From Pohlia nutans (taxonomy: Eukaryota > Streptophyta > Bryopsida > Bryales > Mniaceae), in contig CM040089.1 of NCBI GenBank assembly GCA_022496805.1, forward strand, positions 42,020,372-42,084,371: a DNA stretch of 64,000 bases, written 5' to 3'. The position numbers and the translations under genes were made by a program. Below the pieces are notes generated by a model. It did not search any database. It was not told where the DNA came from and worked only from the letters and a program-made list of their open reading frames with translations. Below are positions 13,556-54,563 of the stretch, one piece after another (position 1 is the stretch's first letter; each line of letters opens with the position of its first letter).

Positions 13556-13557
13556 GT

Positions 13558-18432: not shown

Positions 18433-18508
18433 GAGGGGAGAGCAATCAAAGAGCAACACAGCTCTCAACCTCAGAAACATCTTCTCTTGTACTTCTTTTC
18501 TTCTCAAT

Positions 18509-18952
18509 ATGTCTAATTGGAAGGTATTCCAAGACTCTTTAGATTCTGAATCGCAACCGGAGTCTGAGCGTGAGCTGTCTTTATCACAATTGCCGAACCA
18601 GCCTGTAGATCCTTTGCCACCACAAGAGCCTCGAAACGAAGCTGGACCTTCTCAACAACGAAGACGGCCTCGAAATGAAGAACCTCTTGAACCACGGCAA
18701 CGTCGAAAAATACCCAGTAGCAGATCGTTGGTGATTGTCATCGAAGTAGAACCTGCTTTTGAAGGTCGCCCGGAAGCAGTATTTGAAGGACTTTTTTGCA
18801 ACGAAGACACAGAAGTCCAAGCATGGTCTCAAGTAGCGGGCGTCGGTCACTATCGCTGGTTGCAAGGGCCCTTAAACCACTTAACTCGCGCTAGACAACT
18901 TGAGTATGTCGGAGAAACCATGAGACATATTTTTGATTTTCTTCGCCTCTGA
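18509..18952 (+). CDS. extra ORF between pol and 3' LTR, unknown function
   Basis: 147 residues from ATG 18509, intact. The first half is acidic then Pro/Gln/Arg-rich (QPVDPLPPQEPRNEAGPSQQ, RRRPRNEEPLEPRQRRK, a plausible nuclear-localisation cluster). The second half is a compact hydrophobic/aromatic domain (SLVIVIEVEPAF, GHYRWLQGPL, LEYVGETMRHIFDFL). No signal peptide or membrane segment is visible, so it is not an envelope. I do not recognise it. The position is that of accessory 3' ORFs in some gypsy elements. Confidence 0.7.
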   Translation: MSNWKVFQDSLDSESQPESERELSLSQLPNQPVDPLPPQEPRNEAGPSQQRRRPRNEEPLEPRQRRKIPSSRSLVIVIEVEPAFEGRPEAVFEGLFCNEDTEVQAWSQVAGVGHYRWLQGPLNHLTRARQLEYVGETMRHIFDFLRL

Positions 18953-18991
18953 TCGAGAGTCCACAACAACACTCCTCGTGAAGACTCGTCG

Positions 18992-19007
18992 CTAGAGAGG
19001 GAGGTGA
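18992..19007 (+). promoter_or_regulatory. polypurine tract
   Basis: CTAGAGAGGGAGGTGA, purine-rich, abuts the 3' LTR start at 19008, as expected for the plus-strand primer. Confidence 0.7.
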
Positions 19008-19557
19008 TGTCACGGACATAGAACCTTGAGATGGGTATTGCAAAGACTAGGCCTTGAAGCCAGAGATATGTTATTGTTCAAGACTAGTTCGTGATGGGTA
19101 TTGCCGTAGTTGTCCAGAGATAAGTTATTGTCCAAACTAGTTCGTGATGGGTATTGCCGTATTGTCCAGTGATAAGTTATTGTCCAAACTAGTTCGTGAT
19201 GGGTATTGCCACCGACATAGAACCTTCTAGAATACTTCTAGAAGTTCTATAGGTCCTTTGACTTTTAGGATCTTTCTAGATACTTCCTAGGGACTCTCAT
19301 AGTCTCTAGGAAGCCCCTTCAGAAGCTTCCTTAGTACTAGTATATCTAGGGGACGAGATGAGGGACTCCTCACTCTCGTCAACACAAGTTTAGGAGCACT
19401 CTTGAGTGTGCCTTGTCTTGTATCTTGTTCAACTATCGATTAGTTCAATATACTTTCTTGAGAACCACTCTTGTGTACTATTGCACTTCTTGTTCTTGGG
19501 TCCTTGTTCATGTTCTTGCTCTTGTTCTCTTGTTCTTGAGTTCTTGTGTCCCTGACA
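19008..19557 (+). repeat. 3' LTR
   Basis: 550 bp, same ends and length as the 5' LTR, with no mismatch found by eye. Confidence 0.95.
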
Positions 19558-19614: not shown

Positions 19615-19905
19615 CATTAGGAGAAATCTGTAGTCACAAAGGGGCCCTTGCCTTTGGCACGTGCTGAAAAATTTAGGCAAAACCGTGCACTTTTGACAAA
19701 GGCACCAATGGTGCTACCATGGTTGCCAGCAGTGCAGTTCCGTGGGTCGCGCCAATCGACGCTGCCAACACTGCGGCTCCTGACGCTGTCAACGGGCAGC
19801 GACCTTCACCAATGGGTTTACAAGGAGAGGGGTGTATGGGCAGCCGGTTCACCTAACACGGGTTGTCTTAGAGGGCCCCTTTGGGACCCCATTTTTCTCC
19901 TAATG
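19615..19905. mobile_element. 291-bp deletion derivative of the 19.8-kb TIR element
   Basis: Begins CATTAGGAGAAATCTG and ends TTTTTCTCCTAATG. The left ~75 bp (AGTCACAAAGGGGCC, GTGCACTTTTGAC, GGCACCAATGGTGC) match the right end of the element at 34695-54512 in reverse. The right ~75 bp (GGTTCACCTAACACGG, AGGGCCCCTTTGGGACCCC) match its left end in reverse. It has lost all coding sequence. No flanking target duplication is seen (left ...GTACA, right AGTTA...). Confidence 0.8.
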
Positions 19906-29324: not shown

Positions 29325-29545
29325 CACAAGGAGCTCATATCGTTCCCCTGTGTTCATTCCCCCGCGAGTGCCACTTTTTCCTGTGATTTCGAGTTTTGAC
29401 ATGTGTACAAAATCACCTGCTTAAGCTTAAGCTTAGTCACCTACTTGTAGAAGGAAAGTTTTAACATGTGTCGAGTTCTGAAGCTCAGAGGGGAAAGTGG
29501 CACTCACAGGGGTATCACACAGGGAAACCATATGAGACCCCTGTG
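29325..29545. mobile_element. CACAAGG...CCTGTG MITE, uninterrupted copy
   Basis: 221 bp with imperfect ~50-bp inverted ends (CACAAGGAGCTCATATCG / CATATGAGACCCCTGTG, both continuing to AGTGCCACTTT). The 3-bp duplication AAA flanks it (29322-29324, 29546-29548), a CACTA-like duplication length. It is the empty-site reference for the split copy at 34510/54560. Confidence 0.75.
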
Positions 29546-33656: not shown

Positions 33657-34509
33657 ATTTTATTTTTTTGAAACAAATGAAAGCGGATTTCATTGCAACT
33701 TTACGTTCAATAGCCTTTGTGACTGCTGCCTTCCCCCAACATAATGATGTGGAATATCCCACATCATTTCATCCCCCCAATGAAATGATGTGAGATATTC
33801 CACATCACATCAATAGCTATGGGGGCAGGTGGCATTAAGCAAGAGCAATCAACCATGGTGAATAGTAATCAAAAGCACTCACTCAATCACAATTCAACAG
33901 TGTTTTGTAATTGTTTATTTGATTGAATAGTCCATTCAATTACAAATCACTAGTCACTCCATATATAAAGACGGATGAAACTAAAAGGCGCCCTCTTGGA
34001 AGGCTACTAAATGTTATGAACAGAACAAAAGACAGACCCCAGCCACAGGTGGCCTGGAGGGAGGAGACAAGACAAACCAGAACATAATAGGGGAGAGAAA
34101 ACAAAAAGGCAAGCCAGCACCAAGGGAGAACCCTAGGCTGGCCAGGAGCCCAACATCCTATGTTTAATTATTTTTATTGTCGAACTGCCATCCCACAATC
34201 ACTTTTAGGAAATATATATTATTGGTAGTTTACAAGGCCCGACTCTAAACCCCTAGACGTTAACTGTTCACCCATGGGCCCCATTTTCTGAAATTTCCAT
34301 TTTGACTATCCTATGGTCTTTTTATGGCAATTTTTTTGCAAATTTGGGGCCTATGGCCTAAACTTGATTTAGGGAAACCCCCTCGGGAATTTTAAATCCT
34401 TGGAAGAGGGGGTTATTTTTTAAGGTGGGCCCTACATGTTCAAAATAGGGGGCAGTTTTTGTCCTCTTGCATTAACATTTGGGGGGATTTAGATAAATTC
34501 GTGTACAGG
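33336..34509. other. gene-free stretch with dispersed repeat
   Basis: Contains a (TA)n run at 33614-33653. A foldback segment at about 33730-33815 (GATGTGGAATATCCCACATC and GATGTGAGATATTCCACATC around TTTCAT...ATGAAA) resembles 57360-57420. AGATGAAACTAAAAGGC (about 33975) is also found at about 57960, so 33.7-34.0 and 57.3-58.0 kb are copies of one repeat. Confidence 0.5.
33614..33653. repeat. (TA)n microsatellite
   Basis: About 20 TA units. Confidence 0.9.
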
Positions 34510-34694
34510 CACAGGGAGCTCATATGGTTCCCCTGTGTTGATTCTTCCATGAGTGCCACTTTTCCCTGTGATTTCGAGTTTTGACATGTGTACAAAATCA
34601 CCTGCTTGAGCTTAATCACCTGCTTGAGCTTAATCACCTACTTGTAGAAAGAAAGTTTTAACATGTGTCGAGTTCTGAAGCTCATAGGGAAAAG
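34510..34694. mobile_element. left part of the MITE split by the 19.8-kb element
   Basis: Starts CACAGGGAGCTCATATGG and aligns along its whole length with 29325-29502, then breaks at GGGAAAAG (34694). The remaining 48 bp of the MITE are at 54513-54560. The pre-existing 3-bp duplication AGG is at 34507-34509 and 54561-54563, which shows that the two halves were one copy. Confidence 0.85.
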
Positions 34695-35400
34695 CATTAG
34701 GAGAAAAATGGGGTCCCAAAGGGGCCTCGTAAGGCAGCCCGTGTTAGGTGAACCAGCTGCCCAAACTCCCCTCTGCCGGTGCCAACGGCGGTCCAAAACG
34801 CTGCCCACAGAGTTATTGCACTTCCCTGACGATGTCGAAACGGAGTCGCGTGGCGTGGAGGCCGGCTTGCTGGCGCCGACGTGGGCGGGGTGTTTGGCCA
34901 ACGACCGGAGAAGAGCATTTACTGCTCTGCACAGCCTTGACACAAAGGAGGGATCGTTGCCAACGGTTTTCCAAGCCGGCCGATGGAAGTTTGTTGGCAC
35001 AACGGCTTCACGGTGGAGTGCGGCCGGCGCCTACGCCGTTCCCTACCTAGGAAACGCAGCCATGAATTTTGGTGCGTACAATTTGAGCTCTCCACAACGG
35101 CTGGCCCAAATTACGGTGAATTCTTGCCATATTCATGAAACACACGGGCGCCCCAGGTTCACGGTAGGAGCACGAATTTTCATTTTCGTGCCAGAAGCGT
35201 CCGCTGGCACCAACGGCTTAGGAGGTCCTGCCAGCAAGAGGACGCCGGTGGTTCCGCCTTCCGACATCGTTAGATTCATGCGAAGGTAAGTTGCCATAGG
35301 CAGTAGCCGTAGCTAGTTTCTCGATGGCAATCGGGGATTGTGAATTCTGCAACCATCGGAGTTTGTTGGCACAACGGCTTCCTCCGACTTCCGCAAATCC
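34695..35400. repeat. left terminal and subterminal repeats of the 19.8-kb element
   Basis: After the ~32-bp TIR, variants of GGCACCAACGGC occur repeatedly: GTGCCAACGGC, TTGCCAACGG, TTGGCACAACGGCTTC (twice, near 34996 and 35366) and CTGGCACCAACGGC. Such subterminal clusters usually bind transposase. Confidence 0.55.
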
Positions 35401-36214
35401 CATGCCCAGGGCTTTCCATATCGGTTTTAGGAATTATGGCGCTTGGGTAGATACAAGGGAGTTCCTAAAACTCCTACTTCGATGGACATGATGCATGCTG
35501 TAAGCGGCATTTTCTCCACCGTACTAGGGTAGGAATTGTGGAAGGAAAGATTTTGCTTCCAGCAACAATGATTAGGGTTTAGGGCTACTTGTTGACAGCG
35601 ATTGGGTTTAGGGTAATTGGAAACCATATCAAGGTTTGTCTACACAGCGTCATGACCGTTCAGTAGCATTGGGAGATTCAATCACTGCTTTGGATTTTTG
35701 GATTTTTGGATTCTCGAGGCTTCGTATGTTCCCCAAGTTCCGCTTGATGCGTGCTATGCACCAATTATTAGGCGAGGTTCTCTGCGATCTAAACGGCCGT
35801 GTCTATCAACGTTTCTAGCACGGAGGGCAGCTGGGAATACAAACATTGACTTGTGGACCGATGGCAGCATTTACCCGGTTGATCCAGTAACGGGGGAGCC
35901 ACCTCCATTCAGAACTCTTAAGGAATGCCTCCAATTCATATGCCATGGAGAGCTAGGCCTGTATGGTTATACATGCCCCCAAGGAGGTCCACACCGAAGT
36001 GTGTTGGAGATGCAATGCAGACTGCTGCAGGAAGAAGTGATTGAGGGTATAGGCGAAGCTGCTGTCAGCATCGAACGGCTGGACCGTTGCAGAGACTTAG
36101 AGAATACATGCATGGAATTGCGGGTTGACTTGCAGGCTATACGTGAAGAGATGGACGACAAAGAGAAAACTTATAACATGAGGGTGCAGCATCTGGAGTC
36201 CGAGGTGCACCGTT

Positions 36215-37290
36215 CACTATAAAAAACCTGCGTTTTTGGTGATGTCTTGTACACAACCTGTAGACATGGTCTGTAATGTCTTCTAGCATGGCTAATAATG
36301 GGGACATGGTGGGATGTCTAGAAGACATGAGCAAAAACGCGTAGACATCCTTGGATGTCTACCGAATTTCGGAGGCTGAAAGGTGTGACACGTCGGCGCC
36401 ACGTCAACGCCACATCAGCGGCAAATGGACGGGCAGTGCCACGTCGGCGATGGAATTCATCCTCCCCGTGGGTGACGTGGACGGAGAAATGGGCCTGGCA
36501 CATGCCGACGTGGCGGCGGGAAAATCCGACGTGGACCCGGGAAATTCCGACGTGTCACCTGAGAAATTCTGACGTGGCATGCCACGTCAGCAGAGGCCTG
36601 GGTTTTTTCAGTTCCGCCTCATGTTTCCGTGGACGTCTCCCGGGACATCACTGTGTTTCAAGAGACATTTGTGCATAGACGCGGACGTGCGAGAGCGTCA
36701 TTTTTGAACATGTTACAAAAGACATGAGCATGGACATCCTTTAGTCGACCTAGAAAACATCCTCACGTCCTGGACCATGTGTTGTCAGATACAGCCGCGC
36801 TAAACGTGGACGTCTCACGAAGCATGGTCACGTCATTCTGCAATCGTGGCTATGTTCTCGGGGACGTCTTACAGAACATGCAATGCGTCACGAATACTGT
36901 TTGTGGAAGACATCATCATGATAAGAGAGTCGTCCCACATAACATCCCCAGATCTCGTAACACGTGTCACGGAAGACATCATCGTCATCACAAAGGCGTT
37001 CCCTCAAACATCTGACGTCATTCACAAACATCTTATAAAACACAGAATCATCATCACATAGTCGACCCATAAAACATGCTGACGTCCTTTACCGCGTTTT
37101 GTGAAAGACAGTGGCCGCTATATGTAGACGTCGCACGAAGCATATTCACGTCACCAACCGAGACATCCTTCGCGACCACCCCAACATCCCCACGTCATGA
37201 ACAACATGCATAACAATACATCTCGCGTGACATGCAGTAGTCTCGGAGAGCATCCATACGTCACATTTCAAAGCAGTTGTACTGTACCAT
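36215..37290. repeat. left subterminal GACATC/GACGTC repeats of the CACTA element
   Basis: Tens of copies of (A/G)GACATCC, GATGTCT and CACGTC in both orientations, often paired head to head. They explain the many short ORFs here, none of which is called. Confidence 0.7.
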
Positions 37291-38099
37291 GGGAGTGATG
37301 CCTGCTAGTCACAAATACGTACTGGCATTGCATATGCATAAAACGTTTTAACAACACAGTTCAATATTCAGAACTATTCAGTCCGTGACCTCATGTGGCG
37401 CATAGTGCACATCTATGGGCCCGTCCACCACACATCGGTGTACTATGCATCCACTAGCTGCACACGCTCCAATGTCATCGGTTGCTTTTGGTGCTCCAAA
37501 AATCATGAGTACTGTCATCCGCGCTTGTTTGAGGCTGCACATGAACATATGCCAACAACAATTGTGGTTAAACAAGGCAATGGCCATGAACTACATAATT
37601 CCTCATACTTGGGACGTTCTATATATGCATGGATCGTTGTACACGTGCATGACCGCTGGCCCCTCATCCCATACGAAAACAACATTCTATACATGTCCCA
37701 ACAAATACTTCAAGCTACATCAGAGCTGAAGACGTCTCCTGGGATGTTCTATCAAACAAGCGGACGCTCTTGGAGTCGCGAAAACGTCTCAACTGATGTC
37801 TGCGCAGACGTCGTGCCCATCGTCCATGTTGTACCTCAACGTTCATTCCGGGATGCTGTGGCTCACCTGCGTGTCATTCACGCTGCATGTTCATTTCTTC
37901 TTGGCCGCCTCCGCTCTTGTTGACGTGCGACCCTGCACTTGTGCAATTACATCATGTCATGGACTCTTTCCATGCAATGTCCCAGTATACTGTACATGAC
38001 AATCTAAAAACTACTTAGACATTGCATAATTTGCCTTACTCAACGCGAAATACTGAATTTCAGACATTCACGTGAAGCGTAAATGCACGTCCAATCATG
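37291..38099. other. CACTA interior without recognised gene
   Basis: ORFs of up to 176 codons run here (for example 37393-37923), but they show no motif and include subterminal-type words at the 3' part. Possibly captured or decayed sequence. Confidence 0.35.
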
Positions 38100-40601
38100 A
38101 CAGTGCATCTACATTTCCCAACCTTCTCAGCTGCAGTCCCCGGTTTCGACAGGCCCGCTTGCTTTGTTGAATCTGCCTTGGTCGTTTTGGATGCCCCCGT
38201 CGGCTTCGTTGTGTTGCTCTCCCCAGGTTAAGACAATCCTGCAGGCTTCGGACTATTTGCAACTGCCTTTGTTATGTTGTCGGGCTTAGTACTGCGCCTG
38301 ACAGTAGCCGCGGAACCCCCCGGTGTGTCCACAACCTCCTGCACTTCCAATTCATCACTACTACTTCAAATGCACGCATTCACAGTAGACAATCAAGTAT
38401 GGTATGCAGAGCAGAGACTGCTCACCTCCCCTCTCCACCCATGTCGAGACATGCAGTGTACCTCCCCTACTTGTCATCACCCAAGCTTTCATTCACGCAC
38501 ATTACAACTTCAGTTCTATACACTTCACAGTCATGACGTCTGTACAGAAAAACATACATCGCATTCAAGAAACACCATGCCCAATTGCCTAGACAGAGTT
38601 CCATAAAAACATCACAGTGTTCCAAAACATGTCTGTGCAATGTCCGACGTGACGCGGGGATGTTTTTGCAGACGTCCGTGCGTTTCCTAAGTCATATTCA
38701 CAGACGTGGTCACAGACGTGATTACGCTTCACTGCTCTACCATATCTACGCTCAGCTCGTTACCTGCTCGGTTTGGACCGCAGGCTCTGTCTGCTCAGCG
38801 GACGGCGTTGTCTGCTCCACCGCATATGGATCATCTTGGTGAACCGGCTCCGCGACGAGTGCGGTGACAGCTGCCTCTCCCTCCACCGTGCCCCCTCATT
38901 TGGCCTGCTCCATCGACTGCCCTCCCCCAACCTCCTCTGCAGCACTGACCTCGTCATCCCTGGGCAATGACGTCTGTGACATGCATCGATTGGAGCGCAG
39001 TGTTGGATGACGTTAGCTTCGCCTCCAGCCGCGCCTCCAGGTCCTCCATCCTAGTGTCAATGCCGTCATCCTCTTCGACCGCATCTGCAGCGGACTTATC
39101 CGACGCGTTAAGCCGCTCGTACTGGTCGTCGATCTCGTCGTTGATCTCGGACTCAAATGGTGCTCGACCTTTCTCCAGAGCCTGCCACAATCCAACCAAA
39201 AAACCATAGCAAGACAGCAAGGGGTACACGAGTCAGCACACAGTGAATGAAGTGGCTGAGACAAATTTGAAATACGTTAGAACTCCCGACGTCGGCCTCA
39301 TCAAAGTCTTCGCCTTGTCCCTGCAGCCAGTACCAGAAAGAACAGCCGGAACCACGTATAGTTTGCAATAGATGTCGCAGTGAACATCGCCTGAGACATC
39401 CACCTACGTCCGCGACGGCATCAATGTGTCTTCTGAAACATCCTCACGTTCTCTAAGACATTCACTGACGTCACCTACTCTGCTGCAAAACTGCTCTACA
39501 CATTCCCCAAACATGCTTCCAAGCAAGCTCCAGTGTCCATCCTACATTGCAGAAACTGTGACTCACCAGTTTCACTATCGCACCCTCTCGAAGTGCGGCC
39601 ATCTGTGTCGACCGTGTGCCCTTGCCCTTCGATACTTTCCGCATCTGCGCCGACTTCTCTTTTCATGCCGCAGTCGCCCTCTTCGTGACAAGATAGTTCC
39701 ACTGCTTCTCGGTGAGTTCGGGTGGCTTATTTTGTTTCTCGTCGATCATGCGGTTGAGCCTGAACCGTCTGTTCGTGAGCGCCTTGTTCACTCTCTTGGT
39801 AATCCACCCTTCGTGTACTATCTTCCGGCCCTGATCGCCCCTCACCTCCCATCCTGCAAATTCACGCATCACAAAGGTAGCACCAGAGTCATTCACGGGC
39901 AAACAGACGTACAAACAACAAGAGTCATTCAACAGACATAAGACACATTCACGTCAACAACAGGGACAGTTCAGGCGATTCAACAGTGGCAATTCATATA
40001 TTCGAGCTTTCTGATTGAATACGTCCCCTTGTCACAGTCGTCATGTTTCCATGCACATCCTCAGACGTCTCATAAGACATCCTTACACGTCTCCATGAAC
40101 ATTTGTTAACGTCCAAGAGGATATCTGCACATCACTTCCAAGACATGGAGAATCTTTTGTATACAATGTCAAATCAGTACCTCCCCTATGTGATAGGCAA
40201 CAGCACAAACTGCGCATACAGATCCATTGTTTGCATTCTGCAGTAAGGCTTTGTAGTTTCTGGGACAAATAAGATGGTTGTACCTGACCACAAGCGCTTC
40301 ATGAATCTTTCGCACGCTGCTAGCTGCTGTTTTGCCCAATTGTGACCGGGATCCAAGTTCCTCGACAGGCGCCGCAACTCAGTCTCGAACGCCCCCACCA
40401 CTGCCCCACACGGAGTTCCTCTTTCGTCCACATGCAGCGGCTTCTTCTCCCATTCCCGCGCACATTGCCGCGCCGCCGCTGAGAAGGAGGCGGTGTCCCC
40501 TCGTCTTTCGAGTCCTCATCGTCGTCCTCTCCGTCCTCTTCGTCCTCTTTTTCGTCGTCCTCCTGCTCGGAGTGAGTGTTGTACCCTGCGCTGTAGAACA
40601 A
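38100..40601 (-). pseudogene. CACTA accessory protein, TnpA / Transposase_24-like
   Basis: Minus-strand exons: about 40601-40270 (acidic EQEDDEKEDEEDGEDDDED then ETELRRLSRNLDPGHNWAKQ, donor CAG|GTACAA); about 39840-39575; 39188-38957 (acceptor TTGTGGCAG); and low-complexity tails to about 38100. The middle exon is the Transposase_24 core of plant En/Spm TnpA: VNKALTNRRFRLNRMIDEKQ, PPELTEKQWNYLVTKRA, then KEKSAQMRKVSKGKGTRSTQ. TGA (39665-39663) interrupts it where Trp is typical. It continues ALEKGRAPFESEINDEIDDQ and a coiled DGIDTRMEDLEARLEAKL. Further frame changes and stops lie in the acidic tail and the K/T/P-rich tail near 38.3-38.1 kb. TnpA proteins bind the subterminal repeats. This copy is decayed. 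Confidence 0.7.
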
Positions 40602-40660
40602 AAAACCTTGCCTAATTCCATGTTAATATCACATACCTTAACATGTAATAGATTATATTG

Positions 40661-41029
40661 CAAGTTTTAGGGTTTCTTCCACAACAAATCAAATATTGCA
40701 GGTCTTAGGGTTTCTTCCACAACAAATCAAATACTAGAAGTTTTAGGGTTTCATCCACAACAAATCAAATACTAGAAGTTTTAGGGTTTCATTCACAACA
40801 AATCAAATACTGCAAGTTTTAGGGTTTCATCCACAACAAATCAAATACTACAAGTTTTAGGGTTTCATCCACAACAAATCAAATACTACAAGTTTTAGGG
40901 TTTCATCCACAACAAATCAAATACTACAAGTTTTAGGGTTTCATTCACAACAAATCAAATACTGCAAGTTTTAGGGTTTCATCCACAACAAATCAAATAC
41001 TACAAGTTTTAGGGTTTCTTCCACAACAA
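40661..41029. repeat. 38-bp tandem repeat with embedded TTTAGGG, ten copies
   Basis: The unit CAAGTTTTAGGGTTTCATCC continues ACAACAAATCAAATACTA. It is repeated with exact 38-bp spacing from 40661 to 41003, with scattered substitutions. Each unit holds one plant-type telomere word TTTAGGG. It lies inside the CACTA element just upstream of the TnpA-like gene on its strand. Confidence 0.9.
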
Positions 41030-41965
41030 CACCTTCATAGTGTCATACAAGACGCCTTTGAAATCCACTAACACCGATTTCTTCATCAAATTGTCCCCTC
41101 CCCCTCCCCCGACTTTGACCTTGCCGCCACGCTTCCAAGGCGGGGTAGCATCCTCACTTGTGTCCGCTGAGAGAGAAAAAGAGAAACCTTTTAGTCTTGC
41201 ACACCTATCTCTCAAGCAGTGCATGTTCCATGGCTCTCTCTACAACTACTATTCTCTTACTATAGTTTACAATCATTCTAAAAATGAATGGCAACACTTT
41301 TGAAAACCTCTACACTCTAAACTCTAACTTCTTGGAAAAATGAAGGCAAAAATGAGCTTTGTGCAACCTTGAATTCTACTTAAAAGTCTCCTGACCTAAC
41401 TATGGCTGCGGCAGCTAACCCTAGCCGCCTCTGTTCATCCAGTGAACTGGATGAAAGTCATCCCAGTAGATGTTTGCAGGGACGCATGGATGTCATCAGG
41501 GACGTATGGATGTCATCAGGGACGTATGGATGTCATCTTAGACATCTTCATGGACATCATCTTAGACATCTTCATGGACGTCATCCTAGACATCTTCATG
41601 GACAGCGGGATGTCATCATTGATGTCCTTCCAAATGTTCCAATGTTGGCTATTCACTGTAATTTTTGAATTCATCTTGCACTCACATAAATTTAAAGACT
41701 TCATATTACTGAGACGTCTTGCTTTTCTAAAAACGTTTTACTTGGCTTAAAATGTGTTAAAAGAAATTTTTACAAGTTTCTAATCAAATAAACTCTCATA
41801 CAAGCACAATTTTATTTTTAGACAAATAAAACATCTTATACTTCCGTCTAAATGTTTTTCAGTATATTAAGAAATATAAAGTTTTTGAAAGTACCTAAGT
41901 TTAAAAATAAAAATAAAAAACATTGTAATGAACATGATGGAAGTTCAATGATGAGTATGGGTTTT
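41030..41965. other. CACTA interior without recognised gene
   Basis: Contains a short tandem of GGGACGTATGGATGTCATCA and GACATCTTCATGGACATCAT (about 41480-41610), variants of the subterminal words. No gene is supported. Confidence 0.45.
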
Positions 41966-43556
41966 GCATGGTATGGTTCACCAATTTGTTTGTTACAATG
42001 CAAAATTGTGCTCTTCTTTTTAATCTTTTAGAACTTCATAAATAGAAATTGGTAGTAGAAGTTTAAAAATAATTGAACTACTACAACTAAGTGGGAGGTT
42101 GCAAGCTACGGTCACCCAAACTTTTTGTCGCGGCATGCAAATTTGTGCACTTACCTAATCTTTGGAAAATCATCAATAAATATTGGAATGGAATTTTGTG
42201 ACGAAACAAATTGCATTGTTTCTAGAATTCTGAAGTTAAGATGTCTACCACAATAAAGTTTGCAAATTTTCAATCTTTCTATCCAAATTAAGCATTTCTA
42301 CTTAGATTTGGTAGCGTGTCGCTTGTCAAAAGTGCACCTATTTTATGGGAAATGCTAGAAGGGGGTCAAATTTGAACTTCAAAAATTTATAGCAACATAC
42401 CACAAGTGTGTACAAAGGTACCATATTTTATTTTTTTGGGTACTACGCTTACTTATTTTTTAATTAATTGTTTGGTGATGTTTTTGTTTTTTAAGATTTT
42501 CGTGCAGTTAAAACTTTTTTTTGGATTTTTTTTTTTGGAAATGAAATAATGGTTCAATTTCAGAGGTGGGATATGAAATGCATTTTTCATAAAACCTAGC
42601 TAAGGATGTTATGTAAAAAAGGCTCTAATTACCCCTACTCGGTAAAAAACAAAAAAGGCTATTGAGTAATGCCCAAAGACTTGAAATTAACTTAACAATT
42701 GCTAAAGTGAAAGTATTAGCATAAACCCTATTTGGGATGGTGAAATTTTTGATCTAATTGAAAGTTGAGAAATGCGCATTACTACGCTAGTGCACGAGCT
42801 GCATGGCCTTTAGCTGCACAAGCTGCACTCCCCACTTGGTAGACCGTAGCTTGCAATCACCCAAGTGATGTCTTCTACCAATGCCAACAAAAGAAGTTAA
42901 AAGTAACAAACATGCAATCCAAATTAATGATTATGTGAAACATTAGTGCCTTGTTGTAGTGCAAAAGTGCATACAAAAATTATGAAAGAGAAGAAGGTTG
43001 TGCATGGAATTTTGAGCTATAAATTTTTCCAATTTACAAATATGTGAAGAGAAATATGTTTTACATTTTTCCGAGTTTTTCCAAATTATTGAAATCTTAA
43101 TTTTAAAATATATGTTGCCGAAAATTGTTCTCTGACTATTTCTAAAATACTTTTTTGATGGATTTTATTTATTTTTGTTTCCTTCATAACAAAAAATTTC
43201 AAGTGGGAGTATTTTCAAATTTTCGAATATAGAACCAAACATGAACTATATTTACATTCAAAGTTTAACTATATTGTTCAAAGTGGTATTAGAATGGGAG
43301 TTTTAATTTATACTCAAAATCTTCAAGATTAAATCATTTAGACAAACTAGGATTTAATTCTATCATTCATAAATACATAAATTTAAAAGTTAGTTCACTT
43401 CATTTTTCATTGTAATATTTCTTAATATTTTTTAAAGAGGATTAAAAGTTATCTCTTTCAATGAAATTAAAAATGCACAATGTGCACAAATGTGCACCAA
43501 AAGGCATGATAATTCACAACTCTGAATTCCCTCAATATGGTGAACCATACCATGCA
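41966..43556. mobile_element. AT-rich TIR element nested in the CACTA element
   Basis: GCATGGTATGGTTCACCA at 41966 is mirrored by TGGTGAACCATACCATGC ending at 43556. The 1.6-kb AT-rich interior has no ORF and contains another inverted pair (TTGCAAGCTACGGTC near 42099 and GACCGTAGCTTGCAA near 42843). It lies directly before the TnpD fragment and may have truncated it. Confidence 0.6.
42090..42870. mobile_element. inner MITE within the AT-rich element
   Basis: Ends near GTGGGAGGTTGCAAGCTACG and the mirror CGTAGCTTGCAATCACCC. About 780 bp, non-coding. Boundaries are approximate. Confidence 0.45.
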
Positions 43557-43561
43557 CAACG

Positions 43562-44080
43562 GTGTTGCTCTGCGAATGGGTTAAAGCCTCACGTGATGTT
43601 CTAGTCTCCAACATTGAATGTGACAGGTACGGATTCAACGTGGTGTGCATCTTGATATCGGGGAAGTGGTCGCCAACGGCGACAAACATAGATGTCTTCT
43701 TGCGGCCACTTTTGAAAGAGCTACATCAACTTTGGCGTGGTGTCGCGGCCCAAGATTTCACCCAACCACTCGGGTCCCGACGCTTCAACCTACGTGGGTT
43801 GCTGATGTGGACCATTTCCGATTTTCCAGCGTACGGCCTCATCTCAGACCTATGCTGTAAGGGATATAAAAGATGTCCGTGTTGTGGCCCAGAGACGGAC
43901 GCTCGATCTGCCATCACCGTGGACATCCTAGAAGACAATGATGAAGACGCGTGCACGTCTGTTACGGATGTCATCGCGGACACATCACGAACAATGTGCA
44001 AATGTCCGCCGGGATGTTCTAGCCCACGTTCGGAGCGCGACATCAGAGATGACCGCGGAGACACCGCGCACATCGAGTGA
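43562..44080 (+). pseudogene. CACTA TnpD fragment (DUF4216 scrap joined to Transposase_21)
   Basis: The first ~27 codons (LLCEWVKASRDVLVSN..CDRYGFNVV) look like the DUF4216 segment seen intact at 3.5 kb. The next ~80 codons are the Transposase_21 signature: LISGKWSPTATNIDVFLRPL, LKELHQLWRGVA, LLMWTISDFPAYG and CCKGYKRCPCCGPET. In a normal TnpD the DUF4216 part lies far C-terminal to Transposase_21, so the two pieces are rearranged. After CPCCGPET the frame runs into subterminal repeats. There is no start codon and no full catalytic domain. Confidence 0.7.
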
Positions 44081-45815
44081 GACCTTTCGTGCAATCCCAG
44101 GTCTCTAATGTCGCGCCCGATGTCTTCACGGGTGTTTAGAGAGACATCCGTCACGACGTCTGTAGAAGCATCCCGTACGTCTTAGACCATGCCATACTGC
44201 TATGTTCCAGAAGACATCCCAAATGTTTCGGTGTACATTGTCCAGAATGTCCGGTTTTCTGACTTCTAAGACGGTGCCATGTCATCCCCGACGTCTATAG
44301 ATGTCCTAGACCGTGTCACAGTGGACGTCTGTGCGAAGACGCCCTACTGCATGAAGGATGTATGCGGCGATGTCTGATCGGACATCTCCTTGGACATCCT
44401 AGAAGACAATGATGGAGACGCGGGCCCGTCTGTTACGGATGTCTTCGCGGACATGTCATGAACAGCATGCGGAGGTCCCCGGGATGTCCCAGCTGACGTT
44501 CGGAGAGCGACATCACGGGCCACTTCTCAGAGATCTTGGATGTCAGCGCAGACATAGTCTACGTGAACTGAAACATCCGTGGGAGGACATTGTATCTCAT
44601 GTCGCCTACTATGTCTCAGTGGATGTTCATGTAGACATCCGTTGCGACGTGCTCAGAAGTATCCCGCATGTCTTATAGGGTCAGGAGGCTCCAATGTTTC
44701 GGGAGACGTATCACTGTTTGATGGGACGCTATCTGTGACGTCTCCGACCGTGACTTATGTGCTTCTGCGCTGTCTTCCAAGACGTCGGCTATGTGAGCAT
44801 TCACTGTTGCATAGTAAATGATAATGGGGATGTACCATGGGACATTGCAGTTCACCACCGGAGACATCGTTGCGCTTCGAAGACGTCGTGGTGGACATCC
44901 CAAGGGATGTCCACGAAAACATCCCCACGTCATCGAAGTCATCGTGAACGAGATGTCTTACGGACGATGGCCTAAACACAGTATGTCGTGGCAGCTCGTC
45001 CAACGTGGATTTTTCCGTGCCATGTAGGTTAAGTTCTGTAAATTAGGAAATTCCAAAATATATCCACGTGTATTTTCCAGCATAAATGTTGGAAAATCCT
45101 CCTATATTATAAAAGTCTATTTTTTTCCGACGAGGATTTTTAATATTATAATATTAATAAATTATAATTTTCTTAATATATTAATATTAAAAATCAGTTT
45201 TATATAAAAAAATTCTTATATAATATAATATTTTTTAAAAATATTTTTATTTTAATATTATTATATTATTCTGATACTAATATAATATTATAATATTATA
45301 ATTTAAAATTATTTTAAAGAATGGACGAATCAGAAATATGGCGAGTACAAGATATCGAATATAAAATCAATATTCCAAATTATGTGGTGATTTTAAATAA
45401 AAGTATATTGAACAAAAAGGAAAGAGTATTTAATAGGGTGAACCGGTTCTTTTTTCCGCTCTTGCAAACTGCTGCCCATTATGCTGAATTTTTTACATCG
45501 GGTAGCAATTCACCTCGCATTCCAGTAAATTTCAGACACTTACCCTCGATAAATCCAGAATCCCGTGCCAACGTGGCAAACCTGCGTCTTTCCGGATGTC
45601 CTGCGTCATGTCCTCAGAAACGCGCAGATGTCTGCAGACATCTACTCGTTCTTTCCGAAACACGCACCTCGCCGAACCCTGAGATTTCAAATTATCTCCA
45701 AAAACGCAGAGACATCCCTCTATTGTGCGAGACATCCACTCAAACCGCAAAGATATCACACAGATGTCTTTGCGTCTTCCGAAGACATCACCAAAAACGC
45801 GGGTTTCTTATAGTG
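43900..45815. repeat. right subterminal repeats of the CACTA element
   Basis: Dense GACATCC/GATGTC/GACGTC words at 43900-45000 and again at 45560-45815, ending in the TIR. An AT-rich patch of about 500 bp (45030-45560) without the words separates them and may be a later insertion. Confidence 0.65.
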
Positions 45816-48476
45816 GTTGGCAGCAAGAATCAGAGCGCCTCCAGCAGAAAGCCTGTGCAATGAAAGACACGCCTGTGAGAATGCAACGTAGGGCTCGGTT
45901 GCTTAGAGGGATTCATGAGTTGAATCCTGGTACAGGTGGTGCACAACGCAGAGTGAAGCTCATCAGAAGCGTGTTGCAACCACATCTCATGCAAACTATC
46001 AATGAGCGCAACCGGGTCGAGCGTGAGAGCCAACGACTTCATGGGGATAAAGAGTCACAAACTAGAACCGCTGTAGCTCTAGCCAAGATACTATCTAGGC
46101 ACGAAGGTCTAGCCCTCGTGAGTCACCCTGTTATGGGACATGTTGAGACCAAGATTGCCAACAACGTTCTCAAATCAATTGGAAAGCGTGTAGGACCGGA
46201 TAAAATTCTTGCTGCGTGCGACCAAGCAGGGGTGTCCCATCGGGGATACGGTGCTATTTACAAAGCCGTGAGGGGTCCAATTGCTATTTTGAACAAGGAC
46301 ATAAAAGCGAGCATTCTACCCAGCCCCTATCACGTGAAATTGCTTTGGCAGGAGTTGAATGCCAACTTGCCACAGTTTATTGGCGAATACTACCACGTTG
46401 AAGGTCGAATGGAGTTGCCCACGACGTCTAAGAAAACCAAGAAATCCGACGACACACGAAAGGATGTAGTCTTGACTGACAAGAATTCATTATTCACTGA
46501 CCTTGAGGTGGTCCAACAAAGCACGGTGATCTTCTACGGCATCACGGAAATAGGTATGGTTCCCCCTTCGATCATGTTCGTGGCTCACTGTTTGTCCGTT
46601 TGGTGTCAGCAGCCACATTGACTGCGTACAACAAAGAGAAGAGCTTGTTGTTACATTGAATGTGCCCTCACTCCCACTTACAATGGTTGTGCAGAGTTGA
46701 GAGGGGCACCGCTGATCTTTGTCCTGAAACTCAACGAGGCAGAGATTGTTAATGGAAAAAAATTCGAACGTGTTAGTATCACATTGATGAACAGGGCATT
46801 GGACACTGACATTCAGACGGACCATAAGAAGTACTTCTCAGTACAGTCCGAGCAAGAAATCTGGCCAGTTGCAACCTTCTAGGTGGAGAAGGAGCCCTAC
46901 GATGTTCTGTCTTGGATATTTGCACGATCCAAGTTCCCAGCTGTGATTGCAGCACAATCAAGTGGCCAAAAACTGCAAGTCCCCCGAGTTGGTGAATTCC
47001 ATGTGGAGTGGCACCTCGCAGCGGATATGAAGACTATTAAGTGTATGTACGGGCTTCAATCTGGGCCTGCATGCGCAATGAACTGCATATATTGCGAGCA
47101 AAAGAGGATTAAACCTACAGTGGGGACAGCAAGTCATGCAAGTGCTGCCATCAGGGGCCGTGCTAAGGCAAACTGGACGGGAGGACTGTTTGTGAGCACC
47201 GAGCATCGAGCAGCAGAACCTTGTGACATGATAGCATCTGCCAGGTGGAGGCCTATCTTGCCAATTCCTTTGTCTAGAGTGCACATTTGTACACTGCATG
47301 CCCAAGTTCGATTAACGGAGAAGATTGTGCACATGCATATCATGTATGTTTGGAACATACAAGATCAAAAACTTAGGACTACTGCAATCGAGCAGATGGA
47401 GAAGTCATTGTCAGCGATCGGGGCTCATGGTGGAAACGTGGAGATTAGAAAAGACCCGAAGCTCAGTGGTAACACTGGAAACGTGCCACAAAACCATCTC
47501 TCAGTGGTGTTGTTGCCAGCAGGCTTTTCAAGCCGAGCATTTGGTCTGGCAACGATAAAGCTTGGAAAGATGTTTGTCAAGCCGAGAATAATAATACTCG
47601 CGGTGGTGCGGACCGCATTGCCAAGGCTGCTATGTGGCAAGCCTTTGAGGAGGTCCTACCATATTTGACCGGATTGGTGTTGACAGTAAAACAACGACTG
47701 CAGTTCAAACAGAAGATCGAACATTGGGGAAGGGCGTATTTAAAGGCCTTTGGGGAGGAGCATGTTTCCCATTACATGGTAATTATGTTCATTAATCCGT
47801 ATGTCAAAATCCAATTCCTTTCTTGACGGGCCACTTATTTCATCAGGGCAACGGGTTTTAACTTTCTTCTTCTTGGTGACAGCACGTACTTGTGAGGCAC
47901 TCAAGTTGGTTTGTGGAACAATATGGTAGCCTTGGAGTCTGGAGTTTCCAGGGTATGGAGAAATCTCACCATCAAGCGAAGGTAGCAAATCAAGCACATA
48001 CAGCTGATGGTGGTGGCAAGGCGCGCATCAGTGTCCTTTTGCAACAATTCCAGCATTGGTACCGAAATATACAACATCAATACAACAAGAAATTGGAGTG
48101 CTTAAGAGTTGTCTATACCCCTGATGATGAAGCAAGAGGCGCAGCTGCATGCAGAAGACGCGAGCGGTGGCATCAATCAAATGTTGCCACCGCTTTGGAG
48201 AACTGGCGGTCAAGGCGACGGCGTGTTGGCAAAGCGTGGGTTACTGAAGACTCCGTGGGAGGTGGAGGGGATGGCTTTAGGGAGGGCGAGCTAGAATGGA
48301 ATTGCGATGGGGACATGGTTGGAAATGGGGACGACAACCAAGAAGAAAGGGATGCTGCCAACGATGTGGACATTGAGGATGCTGCCAATGATGTGGCCAT
48401 TGAGGACGTTGCCAACGATGTGGACATCGAGGATGTTGCCCACAGTGTCGACATTGAAGATGCTGAGAGCGAATGA

Positions 48477-49606
48477 GGAAAATACATTAAAATTTGACAT
48501 TTCGGATATACGGGATATGATTGAAGTATATTGTTCTAATTTCAACGATGTTTGTCCATTTGTACAGTACCCTATAGAACGGTAAAACTTGGCATTTGAC
48601 TAGTAAGAAGCTCTTTTGAAAGTTACACTTTTTTTATATTTGATCTATGGATTTTAACTACTGCAATAATTTGGGCAGTCCAATCATAAAATTGCAGGCC
48701 ATGATGAGGGATGCCACAAAAAATCTTACTAATCATGTTGACGAGTCACCCTAATACCCCCAATTTCAATTTATGACATGTTGTGCACCCCATCAAATAT
48801 TCACCTTCATTTGCAAATCCAAGAATCCTCAACAATTATGCACCTTAATTTGCAAATCCATGAACCCTCATCATTGATAATGACACGTAGCCAATAGTAC
48901 GTTGCCACCAACCCTCAAATGACCGTGTTTTAAGGGCTTCATATGTGAGCCATCATGCATACGTAAGGAAGTGATATTTAGGGTGAAGGGCTCTAATTCC
49001 CTTCGTTCATAATGAAGGGCTTCATTGAAAGAGCCACCACCCCATTTTTCCTCTCCCTAAAGCCACTTAAAGGCTCATGCTGTATGTATGGTCCTTCCAT
49101 TTCTCAATTTCAATTTCATTTCTCATACGCTCACTGTGGACTTCTTTCCAAATTCTCATACGCTCTCTGTCCATTTTTTATGTTCTCCTACGCCCCCCCT
49201 GGTCCCACTCTGCCCTCAGTCACTGTGAGTTGATGCCAGCAGACGCTCCCGCGACGCCAACGACATAGTCTCATTGACAGGCCACCTGCTGCAACGGCAG
49301 GCTCTCACGAGCGCGTGCAAAGGGCGAGCGACTTCGCGGGCAAGCGGAGCGCGAGCAAAGCTGTATGTTGGTTGGCGAGCCCAGATATTTGTGGAGGCGT
49401 AGTGTAGACGCGGAGGAAGAAGAAAGCTTGCGGGCGCGGCAGCGGCGAGGTAAGATTGCTTTGATTTGCCGCTGTAGCTTTTTTTTGGACTAACGCCGCT
49501 TTGGGTTAGAGGTGGATGACGTTCCTAAACCCTATGCATTGAGGCCATGACTATATTGCCACATTTCTTCAGCCATGGCAGCTGAATTTTTGTCCACCCT
49601 GAAGAC
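48477..49606. other. spacer between the two plus-strand genes of the 19.8-kb element
   Basis: No convincing exon. The ORF starting at 49607 lacks an in-frame ATG upstream, so a 5' exon may hide in 49.2-49.6 kb. A candidate ATG at 49575 is in another frame and runs only to a TGA at about 49656. Confidence 0.35.
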
Positions 49607-51640
49607 TTGGCCCGTCTTGGTAGGAATGGCGCAGCGCAAAAATGCCCCACCGCTGTGACGCCAGAGGTGAAGCTAGAGGTGAAGCCAGAGGTGAAGCCGG
49701 AGGTGAAGTCGGAGATGAAGCCAGAGGTGAAGCCAGAGGTGAAGTCGGAGATGAAGCCAGAGGTGAAGCCAGAGGAGCACGAAGACGAGGAGGTGGAAGT
49801 GGTTGCTACCAGCAAAGACGCAGACACAGTTTATACGCAGTGGGACCAGCCGTTTGACCTGAAGGCCTTGCCCGATTCAGTGGCGTCTAAGCTCAGGTTT
49901 ATGGCACCCTTTCTTCTTGGTAGGAAGAAGGCAAATTATGATGCTGAATTCTTCCACCGGACCCTCGGCCTATGCATGGCGGAAACCTCGTTTGCCCAGC
50001 TCAGCAATGACAAGGTCTTACATAAGAACAAGTTTTTGGAGCGGTGGCCAGAGCGGTCATCTGGGCGGCATTACATTTCGGATTGCAGTGATGAACAAGC
50101 CATCGAGGCTTACACCTCCATGCACAACAAGGTGTATGGGGGTGATCCAGACAATGGAACATTTGGTACATCATTTCTTCGTGCATGCTATTTGAGCTTT
50201 GAGAAGGGCATAGAGGTGAACTGGGCCCAGAAAGCGGAGTTGCTGCAGAAGGCGCGTGAGAAGCAGACTTCACGCAATCCCCTGAAACTTTCACCCCCAG
50301 CTTTGAGGGAGCAGATTCAAGCCATCATTGAGATCCTTGCGGGCCACATTGAGGACAAGTCAGCTGGTGCGATCATAGCCTCCACACCGGCACTGGGCGC
50401 TGTAGTTGACAACACCGTCAATGTTACCGGCTGCACCAGCAAGGAGGACATTGATGTCAGCAGACCTAGGTCTTCCCTTGATGGTAGCATACATGAGGTC
50501 AGGATCACTTCGGATCCCAAGGCAAAATTAGACCAAGCGAGGAGGAAGAAAGCTGAAGCTGATGCGGAACTCGAGAAGTTGGAGGCAAAACGTGAACGTT
50601 TTGAGGGCGATTTGCGAAACCAGCGTGCCTTTTTAGCGGAGAAGGAGGATGAAGAAAACAAGTGTCATGAGGACGTTGTTGCCCACCGTGCTGCCAGCAA
50701 GAAAGCGGGGGCCGCTGGCAACGATGCAGAGAAGAGGCGCTTTGCAGACTTGGCCCGTCTTGGTGGTGATCAACTGTCCCTTGCAAGCAAAGCTGCCCAA
50801 GATTGCCAAGAGCGCATTGACACAAAGGAGGCTTCAATGAGGGATCTGGAGGAAGACATAGAGAAGTGCAAATATGAGGTTGGAGTTCTCCGTGAAGAGA
50901 TCTTGTCCCTCGAGCTGGCAACAGCTTTCATACAACCCAAAAATGTGTTGTCACGCTTGCCATCCGAGTTCCGAGCCCTGCCCATCCAAGTTTCAGACCC
51001 ATGCCCCTTTTACGGCCGATACTTTGTTGACACAGCTTGCGTACCCTTAACGTGCGGTTGCTTAGCACACCCACATTGCATGTTTCAGCTTGTTTTCTCG
51101 CTTGATGCGAAGTGTAGACGATGCGAGTGCGCTGTGACCGGAGGGTGGCTTGTACAGTGGGGATTCCCACTCAATGAGACGGCTCAGGCGGAACTGCACC
51201 TACTTCAAGAGATTCTTAAGTCCCCCGCGCGGGTTTCACCACGTCTCCAACGAACTTCTAGTGGCAGCAAGAGGCCCGCTGAGCTTATAATTTTTCCTTC
51301 CGAGAATGAAGGTTGGACCAAGAAGAAGGCCCGCATCGAGGGCCCCGGGGGGACGTCAAAGCCTCCAGTCGCTGCACGCAAGAAGGTGAGTCTCGAAGCT
51401 TTGTTGCCAGCAGCCACAAGGGAGGTAAAGGACGTTGCCACGACTGACGTGAAGGACGAGCGCGACATTGTACAGTGCACGCCAGAAGATACACCGGAGA
51501 AGTTCGAGGGCACAGACGGAGATGCGAGTGATGTGGAGTGTGAGTGGCTCGAGGAGCCCGAAGGAAATGGTGGCGATGCGGAGAACTCTGCAAATCTCGA
51601 AGCCCTTGTTGACGCGATTGGAATAGCAGACGTGGAGTAG
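49607..51640 (+). CDS. large ORF with nine psi-K-x-E repeats, coiled coil and RING-like finger
   Basis: 677 codons open; the 5' limit is a TTG codon, so the true start is unknown (upstream exon, or the ATG within the repeat at about 49715). In order: nine consecutive tetrapeptides VKLE, VKPE, VKPE, VKSE, MKPE, VKPE, VKSE, MKPE, VKPE (codons 21-56), each a SUMOylation consensus; an acidic link; a region with LRFMAPFLLGRKKANYDAEF and KFLERWPERSSGRHYISD; a long charged coiled coil (KLDQARRKKAEADAELEKLE onward); then a Cys/His cluster CPFYG, CVPLTCGCLAHPHC, CRRCEC, like a RING or SP-RING finger; and a basic then acidic tail ending in TAG. It lies between the transposase-like gene and the minus-strand ORF. 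Function unknown. Confidence 0.65.
   Translation: MARLGRNGAAQKCPTAVTPEVKLEVKPEVKPEVKSEMKPEVKPEVKSEMKPEVKPEEHEDEEVEVVATSKDADTVYTQWDQPFDLKALPDSVASKLRFMAPFLLGRKKANYDAEFFHRTLGLCMAETSFAQLSNDKVLHKNKFLERWPERSSGRHYISDCSDEQAIEAYTSMHNKVYGGDPDNGTFGTSFLRACYLSFEKGIEVNWAQKAELLQKAREKQTSRNPLKLSPPALREQIQAIIEILAGHIEDKSAGAIIASTPALGAVVDNTVNVTGCTSKEDIDVSRPRSSLDGSIHEVRITSDPKAKLDQARRKKAEADAELEKLEAKRERFEGDLRNQRAFLAEKEDEENKCHEDVVAHRAASKKAGAAGNDAEKRRFADLARLGGDQLSLASKAAQDCQERIDTKEASMRDLEEDIEKCKYEVGVLREEILSLELATAFIQPKNVLSRLPSEFRALPIQVSDPCPFYGRYFVDTACVPLTCGCLAHPHCMFQLVFSLDAKCRRCECAVTGGWLVQWGFPLNETAQAELHLLQEILKSPARVSPRLQRTSSGSKRPAELIIFPSENEGWTKKKARIEGPGGTSKPPVAARKKVSLEALLPAATREVKDVATTDVKDERDIVQCTPEDTPEKFEGTDGDASDVECEWLEEPEGNGGDAENSANLEALVDAIGIADVE
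49667..49774 (+). repeat. 12-bp in-frame tandem repeat, nine units
   Basis: GTGAAGCCAGAG and close variants repeat exactly every 12 bp, encoding the psi-K-x-E array. Confidence 0.85.
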
Positions 51641-52251
51641 GTTTGAGGTGTTGTTGTAAATAGTGCTATAATGGACTAACATTAGCGGCATCGACGAGGT
51701 TCGTTGTTTAATTTTCATCGGCAGAGTGCTATCGTACTCTTTGTTGTCAACTGCGGTTGAGGACACTAGTTGCTGTCAACAATGTGTAAGTAGTTCGTTT
51801 CTGTGAGTGACAGCCGAGACGTTGTAAAACGCTAACCCCCTTTTTTTTGCGAACTCATGGTAAAGAAATGCATCGTTGTAATTGTATCGTGAACATGTGC
51901 CTGGAACTTTGTCCCAATGTTTCGTGGAAGTTGCCCATGTCCTAGGCAGGTGAAGTTTGCTGGCATCATCATTTTTTATTAGGATTTGCATTGATTAGGG
52001 GAAAATGCAGCCATGAGGCCCAGGGGAGGACAACATACATACAAGAAGAGCATTTAATCCGTGTATGGTAGATAATTTCCGGTGCTTGTAAAAATTCACA
52101 AGTGCATCAGTTTAGGGCGACGTCCCGGTCAAAGTGTATGGACCAAATGGTCAGTGTGGGGAACCCTAAACCTGAATGACTTATATCGTAGGCGGACTTG
52201 TGAAGACCCTAATAGAATTACCCCAAAAAAAAAATCTCTCATCCTACACTT
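51641..52251. other. spacer between convergent ORFs
   Basis: No gene. The 3' ends of the 677-codon ORF and the minus-strand ORF face each other across it. Confidence 0.45.
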
Positions 52252-53565
52252 CTACAATCTTGATGGTTTTGGGAACCGCGACCTCAGCAGCAAGTAGATG
52301 TCTCTCATGGCGTTTGTTGATATGCATCGAGGCATCAAACTTGGTACGTTAGCTTTGTTTGCTTCCAACAAGTAGCTCCAGCATTGGGTCCCAAAATCCG
52401 AGAGAATGGTGCGACCAACAGATACCTTTTTTTCGCGATTACCGGTTGCCTCCAGCACAACCATGTTGTACTCTTCGGGAACGGCATCTCCGAGCGTCAT
52501 TGCAATTTCGTGGCGTAAGTGGGATACTGGCCATGCCTTGCCCACTTGAAATGTTGGCATCGCGCTTCCTCTGAATAGACAACACACTTCCACCATCTCC
52601 ACGTCCGGTAGGTGGTCAATCGCATCCCACTTGTTGTTGGCAACACCCATGAACCTTGTATACTGGAACCTGGTGTACAGTGTCTGCCTACCCACATGAT
52701 AGCGGAAGACAATGTTGGACCTATTCACAACACACTTGATAACATCCTGGCCAATGTGAAACTTCTCGCTCCACTCCGGATTCATCAAACTGCTTAGGAG
52801 AGCGTCGGATGGAGTGTGGAGAACGAAGAGCGTAGGTGTCCGCCGAATGTTGTCACATGCTACAGCAAACAAATCAACCATAACATGGATAGGCATAAAC
52901 CATTGCTGGTGGGCAAAACTACTACCAGTCGACGCTTTCATCGCATTTGCAAAATCTGCGGTAAGTCTGGTCCTGAAGGCCTCGGATGTGTGCATGTCTG
53001 GCAAAGGCCATTCGACATCGTTGAAACCAGGGAACAAGAGGGCTTCTACCTTCCCGTACAACGTAGGACCCAGTGGAGGGAAATACACACCCTTGAGGAA
53101 GAATGTACCTGTGTTCAACAAGTCCACGTGACTTCGACCATTCCGGGTTGCCTCTCCAATCTCTGCATGGAGTACAAGAATGGGACCAATGATAGATGCG
53201 GGGTGCACCCAATCCTCAGAATGCGACGCGTACAGGTAGTTTGAAATGCATGGCCCATTTGCTGCCAACGCTGGATCCAAACGTAGATGGCGAGGCTAGT
53301 ATGCATGTCGCACAAGCACTTTATCCAGGTTGATTGCTCCACGCACACCGTGTGTCCACGAGAAATCTATGATCTGCGCTTTGAAGGCGCCTTAAAAATT
53401 ATCTCCACCATGCCACCTTGCCTCTCTACCCCAAGGCCCCTCCGACGTTGGTTGCAGCATAACCCATGAATCACGGTCCAACCTCATTGGGATCCACTTG
53501 CCCTCTCCGTCTTGATTGTTATGCAGCATAACGCTCTGCACTTGGGAATTTGGCCGTCTAGCCAT
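52252..53565 (-). pseudogene. third ORF of the 19.8-kb element, two in-frame stops, unknown function
   Basis: The frame starts at ATG 53565 (MARRPNSQVQSV) and runs 437 codons to 52252, with a TAA after GGDNF (about 53394) and a TAG after VRHAY (about 53301). The 342-codon stretch below is open. It carries SNYLYASHSEDWVHPASIIG, GVYFPPLGPTLYGKVEALLF, HQQWFMPIHVMVDLFAVACD, VNRSNIVFRYHVGRQTLYTR and VSHLRHEIAMTLGDAVPEEY. The last of these has a ubiquitin-like feel, but I would not assign a fold. Both stops can be Gln codons changed by C to T. It could alternatively start downstream of the stops. Confidence 0.5.
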
Positions 53566-54512
53566 ACCAGTGCAATGACAGAATAGTGGAAGACACCCTA
53601 AAACTACAAGTTCTGCCTTTGATGCCAGCAGGCGCCAGGTAATGTGATGTCAACACATCCAAGAAAACCACACGAGTACAAGTTATGCCCTCGATGGCAG
53701 CAAACGCCAGAGTATGTAACGAAAGTTCTAATATTGGATAAACCCGCATACGAACAGGTCGACCCTTTGAAGGCAGGGCTACTCCACATTATGTCATGGC
53801 AGAATATTGGAAAAAACCAAAAAACTACAAGTTCTGCAGCCCGCTGGCAGCGAACGGCAGATTATGTTGCCAGCGAGCGGAGAACGCCACATTTCCACCC
53901 ATAATCCTGATACATACCAGATTCATGCAAATTTGCTGCCCAATCCCCATCCTAACTCCCAATCACATGGGCACCTCGCAGCTCTGACCAATTACAGCGA
54001 CCCCAAACCAATGCTTCCATGAATCGACCCTAATCACCAACGCCATCGGCATCGCCCACGCCAACGCCATCGCCATCGCCCGCGCCACCACCATCATCCT
54101 ACGAATCGACATTCCGAGCACCACAAACCATTCCAACGTAGCGGCTGGTCGAGGTAACCGTTGGCAGCATGTCGCCCTCTCCACAACTCAAAATCCAAGG
54201 TGGAGCAACACTGACGTTTTCGGAAAATGTAAGTGGCCCGACTCATGACTCTCTTCAAAAATTGAACCTTGAACCCCTACTGACAGCACTCAACCGGCTC
54301 GGGATTTGTGCGCAGCAGCGGCGCTTCGTGTCAGCCCCGACACCGTCTCCCGCCTAAACACCCGCGCTTGTTCTGCGCGATTGGCTCGACCCCCTAGAAC
54401 CCGCAGCACTGGCACCATTGGTGCCCTCGTCAAAAGTGCACGGGCATGCCCAAATTTTGCTCCCACGTGACAGTCCCCAAGGCCCCTTTGCGACCACAGT
54501 TTTCTCCTAATG
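53566..54512. repeat. right subterminal and terminal repeats of the 19.8-kb element
   Basis: Three diverged copies of a ~90-bp unit containing ACTACAAGTTCTGC...TGGCAGC.AACG (53600-53880), a (GCCATC)n-like patch at 54040-54100, then the TIR region with GGCACCATTGGTGCC and GTCAAAAGTGCACGG, shared with the 291-bp derivative. Confidence 0.6.
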
Positions 54513-54560
54513 TGGCACTCACAGAGGAATCACACAGGGAAACCATATGAGACCCCTGTG
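54513..54560. mobile_element. right part of the MITE split by the 19.8-kb element
   Basis: TGGCACTCACAGAGG to GACCCCTGTG aligns with 29498-29545 of the intact copy. Its outer 3-bp duplication AGG pairs with 34507-34509. Confidence 0.85.
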
Positions 54561-54563
54561 AGG

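Follow-up and report, generated by a model that had tools for sequence, protein, structure and literature searches.

A 64,000-bp stretch of the genome of the moss Pohlia nutans (GenBank assembly GCA_022496805.1, contig CM040089.1, positions 42,020,372 to 42,084,371 of the forward strand), here called the window, contains a large element with terminal inverted repeats (TIRs). Its insertion neither duplicated nor removed target bases, as judged against an empty site that is a paralogue, not an orthologue. We consider it likely that this element, referred to below as the outer element, belongs to the CMCT clade (RAG1/Transib/CACTA) of DNA transposons and moves by cut-and-paste, that it inserts without a target duplication, and that it carries accessory genes. 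The zero-length duplication is the surprising part and falls outside the lengths given for CMCT elements.

Ends, target site, and second copy

The outer element is bounded by 33-nt TIRs with 91% complementarity, which bears out the inverted ends reported in a first-pass annotation of the window. Beyond these 33 nt, the left and right ends are unlike each other. The same annotation had taken the 19.8 kb between the ends as one element. The positions of the ends were confirmed, but the reading as one 19.8-kb element was rejected because a 9,601-bp CACTA element with its own TIRs and its own target duplication (GTT at 36212-36214 and 45816-45818) is nested inside. Once this insert is taken out, the outer element has a length of 10,214 bp.

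The outer ends split a CACTA-like miniature inverted-repeat transposable element (MITE) that still carries its own AGG duplication, as first annotated, and both AGG copies were located (Table 1). When the two MITE halves were rejoined and aligned with the intact relative elsewhere in the window, 206 of 233 columns (88%) were identical. The single gap in this alignment, of 12 bp, is more than 60 columns away from the junction, and the junction itself is free of gaps. Direct repeats of 1 to 12 bp were sought at both borders of the large copy, and none was found. The alignment to the paralogous empty site and the absence of a flanking repeat uphold the earlier claim of a zero-length target duplication.

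A second copy, 291 bp long, carries both end types. A search of the window with the first 13 bases of the element, with at most 2 mismatches allowed, found 6 matches, versus 3.02 expected by chance, and 9 of 100 shuffled sequences reached 6; the match count for these 13 bases taken alone is not significant. Two of the matches, at 19615-19627 and 19893-19905, form a facing pair that delimits the 291-bp copy. An 80-bp alignment links this copy to the left end of the large copy (90%, E = 2e-26) and a 101-bp alignment links it to the right end (80%, E = 2e-20); its middle has no match to the large copy. The termini are alike in both copies, exactly CATTAGG..CCTAATG. The flanks of the small copy, TGTACA and AGTTAA, lack a duplication of 2 bp or more, with one A repeated. 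Thus, a duplication of 0 (at most 1) bp fits both of the copies in the window. When both insertions are read in the direction of the large copy, TG directly follows each of them, a possible target preference that may be due to chance with n = 2. The long terminal repeat (LTR) pair at 13005-13555 and 19007-19557 was examined as a source of an empty site for the 291-bp copy and supplied none; 57 bp separate the copy from the LTR match.

Genes of the outer element and clade placement

Gene 1 is interrupted by the nested CACTA element. Its frame at 35656-36214 resumes in frame from 45819 when one GTT copy is set aside, runs to 46553, continues from 46695 to about 47487, and extends on to 48476. 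Putative GT-AG introns are located at 46554-46694 and 47779-47882. The splitting of a gene 1 coding exon indicates that the nested CACTA element inserted later than the outer element. Gene 1 is further damaged by an in-frame stop at 46880-46882 and a frame change near 47487.

The gene 1 protein has at least six relatives, with 31 to 48% identity, among 7,996 candidates scored, a ceiling beyond which further relatives may have been missed. In P0003, a full-length relative, the residues D411, D508, C528, C531, H761, H766, and E785 have spacings of 97, 20, 3, 230, 5, and 19. The corresponding residues of mouse RAG1 are D600, D708, C727/C730, H937/H942, and E962, with spacings of 108, 19, 3, 207, 5, and 20, so that the spacing of catalytic and zinc residues is close in the two proteins. 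In a seven-row alignment of the window protein and its relatives (A1), the first D is present in six of the seven rows, the window row being the one that lacks an acidic residue there, and the second D is present in all seven. The E is found in two of the seven rows, which are all the rows that reach it. The C528-x2-C531 pair, 20 residues past the second D, is present in 7/7 rows, as are the invariant H586 and H591 (VH-x-CTLH). H(4)H, 19 residues ahead of E, is seen in 2/7 (P0003 and the spliced reading of the window gene).

The first-pass annotation had proposed profile and structure searches with the open reading frames (ORFs) of the element. A Pfam scan of the gene 1 pieces and the six relatives found no family at the cut-off, Transposase_21 included. 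Pfam contains a KDZ (Kyakuja-Dileera-Zisupton) family, and none of the seven members scanned matched it. A Foldseek search with a low-confidence model of the full-length relative returned five matches at E <= 0.001, and all five were RAG1 or Transib. hAT and P transposases were not among the 50 matches listed for the transposase, which is not a test of either. Alignment of A1 with the Tnp2 fragment in the window by hhalign gave no match, and PDB sequence searches with A1 and A2 returned only coiled coils and chance matches. No relatives came from viral_contigs, scanned with A1, A2, A3, and the end pattern, or from genome_contigs, scanned with A1 and the end pattern, as expected for viral and prokaryote records.

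Motif and predicted fold support placement of the transposase in the CMCT clade. Transib and RAG1 are its top structural matches, as judged from the low-confidence model, but these systems differ from the outer element in their accessory genes and in having 5-bp duplications. Transposon classification and duplication lengths for other groups were drawn from passages of PMC12730594, PMC10045372, and PMC4482050. As given in those passages, a 2025 paper counts EnSpm, Transib, and Lanisha among the groups that make up the CMCT clade and states duplications of 2 to 5 bp for it, and a figure legend there refers to 2 C and 3 H in the clade; the duplication of EnSpm is given as 3 bp and that of CMC as 2 to 4 bp. 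The outer element shares with CACTA/EnSpm the CA..TG ends, the C(2)C and H(3-4)H motifs, and a plant host. It differs in starting with CATTAGG, in contrast to CAC..GTG ends, in a duplication of 0 bp versus 2 to 4 bp (mostly 3 bp), and in that gene 1 has no Transposase_21 match. KDZ transposons were also considered (Kyakuja too has CA..TG ends) and rejected; the passages describe 7-bp duplications and an absence of TIRs for Kyakuja and 8-bp duplications for Zisupton and a Dileera lineage.

Several points weigh against this placement and against blunt insertion. The last three positions (H, H, and E) are visible in only two of the seven proteins, and the first H column of A1 holds V in P0001, P0004, P0005, P0006, and the window row, where the letters are those of the intron. 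P0001, P0004, P0005, and P0006 end 2 to 16 residues past HYM, and the fifth remaining row ends earlier; the V in these four relatives probably arises where the predicted protein reads past a shared exon border into an intron. The duplications, 0 bp in the large copy and 0 to 1 bp in the small one, depart from those of the clade. The case for blunt insertion is based on two copies, both within the window. The outer element resembles CMCT elements in motif, fold (in the low-confidence model), and termini but not in its duplication and is therefore best described as a variant instead of a typical member.

Gene 2 encodes a protein with a conserved N-terminal region, a coiled coil, and, by eye, a RING-like cysteine/histidine pattern; its relatives were taken from about 8,000 scored candidates, the ceiling of the search, and others may have been missed. 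The product of gene 3 is probably a BAH-domain protein. Gene 3 has 42 relatives, two of which are from the moss Ceratodon. The two Ceratodon relatives of gene 3 bear U- and V-type locus tags, and the family may sit on moss sex chromosomes.

Proposed mechanism and alternative explanations

DDE transposases join the element to target positions that are offset from each other, and this stagger determines how long the duplication is. By analogy with its family, the gene 1 transposase would bind the CATTAGGAG ends and excise the element. The junctions suggest that strand transfer would then occur at directly opposed, unstaggered target phosphates. Unstaggered joining leaves no gap to fill, and thus no duplication. 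The putative BAH-fold protein of gene 3 may recognize nucleosomes or histones that carry modifications, and it may steer integration or counter silencing. The coiled-coil, RING-like protein of gene 2 is probably a further accessory factor. The 291-bp copy could have been mobilized in trans by a transposase of this kind. RAG2 supplies a PHD finger to RAG1. It is tempting, although we rate the chance as short of even, to view the outer element as a moss lineage of the RAG1/Transib/CACTA clade that makes 0-bp joins and has its own BAH-type chromatin reader, in parallel with the RAG2 PHD finger. The copy in the window now looks dead because of the CACTA insertion in gene 1 and the stops in genes 1 and 3; one of the three catalytic acidic positions of its gene 1 is not acidic. 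In relatives elsewhere the open frames are longer.

The family may already have a name. Two of the 42 gene 3 relatives come from Ceratodon, the moss on which the authors of the Lanisha superfamily reportedly work, and whether the outer element is a Lanisha member is close to an even call, with the balance slightly toward its not being one. Membership would make the element new only as a copy or lineage and would compete with our interpretation over the name, not the mechanism. According to the passages cited above, Maumus, McDaniel, and Carey introduced Lanisha in Repbase Reports (2020), and the 2025 paper as excerpted there assigns it to the CMCT clade, describing it as similar to EnSpm and as bearing the C(2)C and H(3-4)H motifs. 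The outer element shares this clade and these motifs, a likeness of description and not of compared sequences. However, the clade that includes Lanisha is stated in the same passages to have duplications of 2 to 5 bp.

Other alternatives concern how the junctions arose. An ordinary CMCT element could have made a duplication of 2 to 5 bp, the norm for the clade in the passages used, that was lost here by a small deletion or repair, and the single empty site available for the large copy leaves room for this. Yet the junction is base-exact relative to the intact MITE, and at the second copy, too, there is no duplication of at least 2 bp, so that two independent losses would be required; we regard this as unlikely. 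Capture of an excised element at a double-strand break by end joining, rather than strand transfer by the transposase, would yield a blunt junction with no duplication. End joining usually trims or adds bases, whereas the target lost no base and both copies start and stop exactly at the same termini, which makes such capture distinctly improbable. The difference between the two ends outside the 33-nt inverted repeat might suggest that they come from separate elements with a composite interior, an outcome that the first-pass annotation had named as fatal to its proposal. This is hardly credible, and was rejected, because the 291-bp copy bears the same two unlike ends as one unit; the flanks also rejoin to a single MITE. 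Finally, passages on Spy (PHIS), a known eukaryotic group, describe insertion without target duplication, as here, but with a strong preference for AAATTT. The sites in the window are GAAAAG/TGGCAC and TGTACA/AGTTAA, and the motifs and low-confidence fold model of the transposase are of the RAG1/CACTA type, not those of the group to which Spy belongs. Spy was rejected on target site and transposase type and is the most remote of these explanations.

If blunt insertion by a CMCT-type transposase is correct, then a RAG1-fold transposase can act with zero stagger, the distance between joined positions would range over 0 to 5 bp in members of a single clade, and zero stagger would offer a structural test of what fixes this distance. 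A transposon-borne BAH protein would add a chromatin reader to transposon accessory genes and provide a natural comparison with RAG2. For annotation, transposable element finders that rely on duplications will miss such elements. The first-pass proposal of a separate large DNA transposon with its own genes survives in part: the genes, the 0-bp insertion, and now a second copy agree with it, but the element is not wholly unassigned, and about half of the span is CACTA.

Nested element and other features of the window

Table 1. Positions of the features described, numbered from the first base of the window
Feature	Position	Strand	Remarks
Whole stretch between outer ends	34695..54512	+	Outer element plus nested CACTA; based on TIRs, empty site, and length without insert
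Left TIR	34695..34727	+	Begins CATTAGGAG
Right TIR	54480..54512	-	Ends CTCCTAATG
Target MITE, left half (CACTA-like)	34510..34694	+	AGG duplication at 34507-34509
Target MITE, right half	54513..54560	+	AGG duplication at 54561-54563
Intact relative of target MITE (CACTA-like)	29325..29545	+	CACA..TGTG; AAA duplication; supplies empty site
Gene 1, DDE transposase, RAG1/Transib/CACTA type	35656..48476	+	Interrupted by nested CACTA; 5' end uncertain
Gene 2	49586..51640	+	684-codon open frame; start codon uncertain
Gene 3, probable BAH-domain protein	52252..53565	-	Two in-frame stops in this copy
Nested CACTA (EnSpm)	36215..45815	+	9,601 bp; TIRs 34 nt, 94% complementary, begin CACTATAAAAAACC
Tnp2 fragment (Pfam Transposase_21) of nested CACTA	43544..44080	+	E = 4.5e-22
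291-bp non-autonomous relative	19615..19905	-	Both end types, inverse orientation; flanks ACA / AGT

The first-pass annotation had found no match to CACTA proteins within the span. This was incorrect, as the ORF at 43544-44080 is a Transposase_21/Tnp2 fragment, though it belongs to the nested element. The nested CACTA element also holds repeats rich in GATGTC/GACGT. A 38-bp tandem array occupies 40661-41029, and the sequence around 45140-45310 is AT-rich.

Elsewhere in the window, an ORF at 3153-3776 matches Pfam DUF4216 (E = 4.7e-8), a domain that occurs with plant Tnp2 transposons. The interval 13005-19557 is an LTR retrotransposon whose 551-bp LTRs (13005-13555 and 19007-19557) are identical, pointing to a recent insertion, and the long open frames between them resemble Ty3/Gypsy by eye. 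An ORF at 31845-32456 matches Pfam Phi_1, phosphate-induced protein 1 (E = 4.6e-11), a plant gene family.

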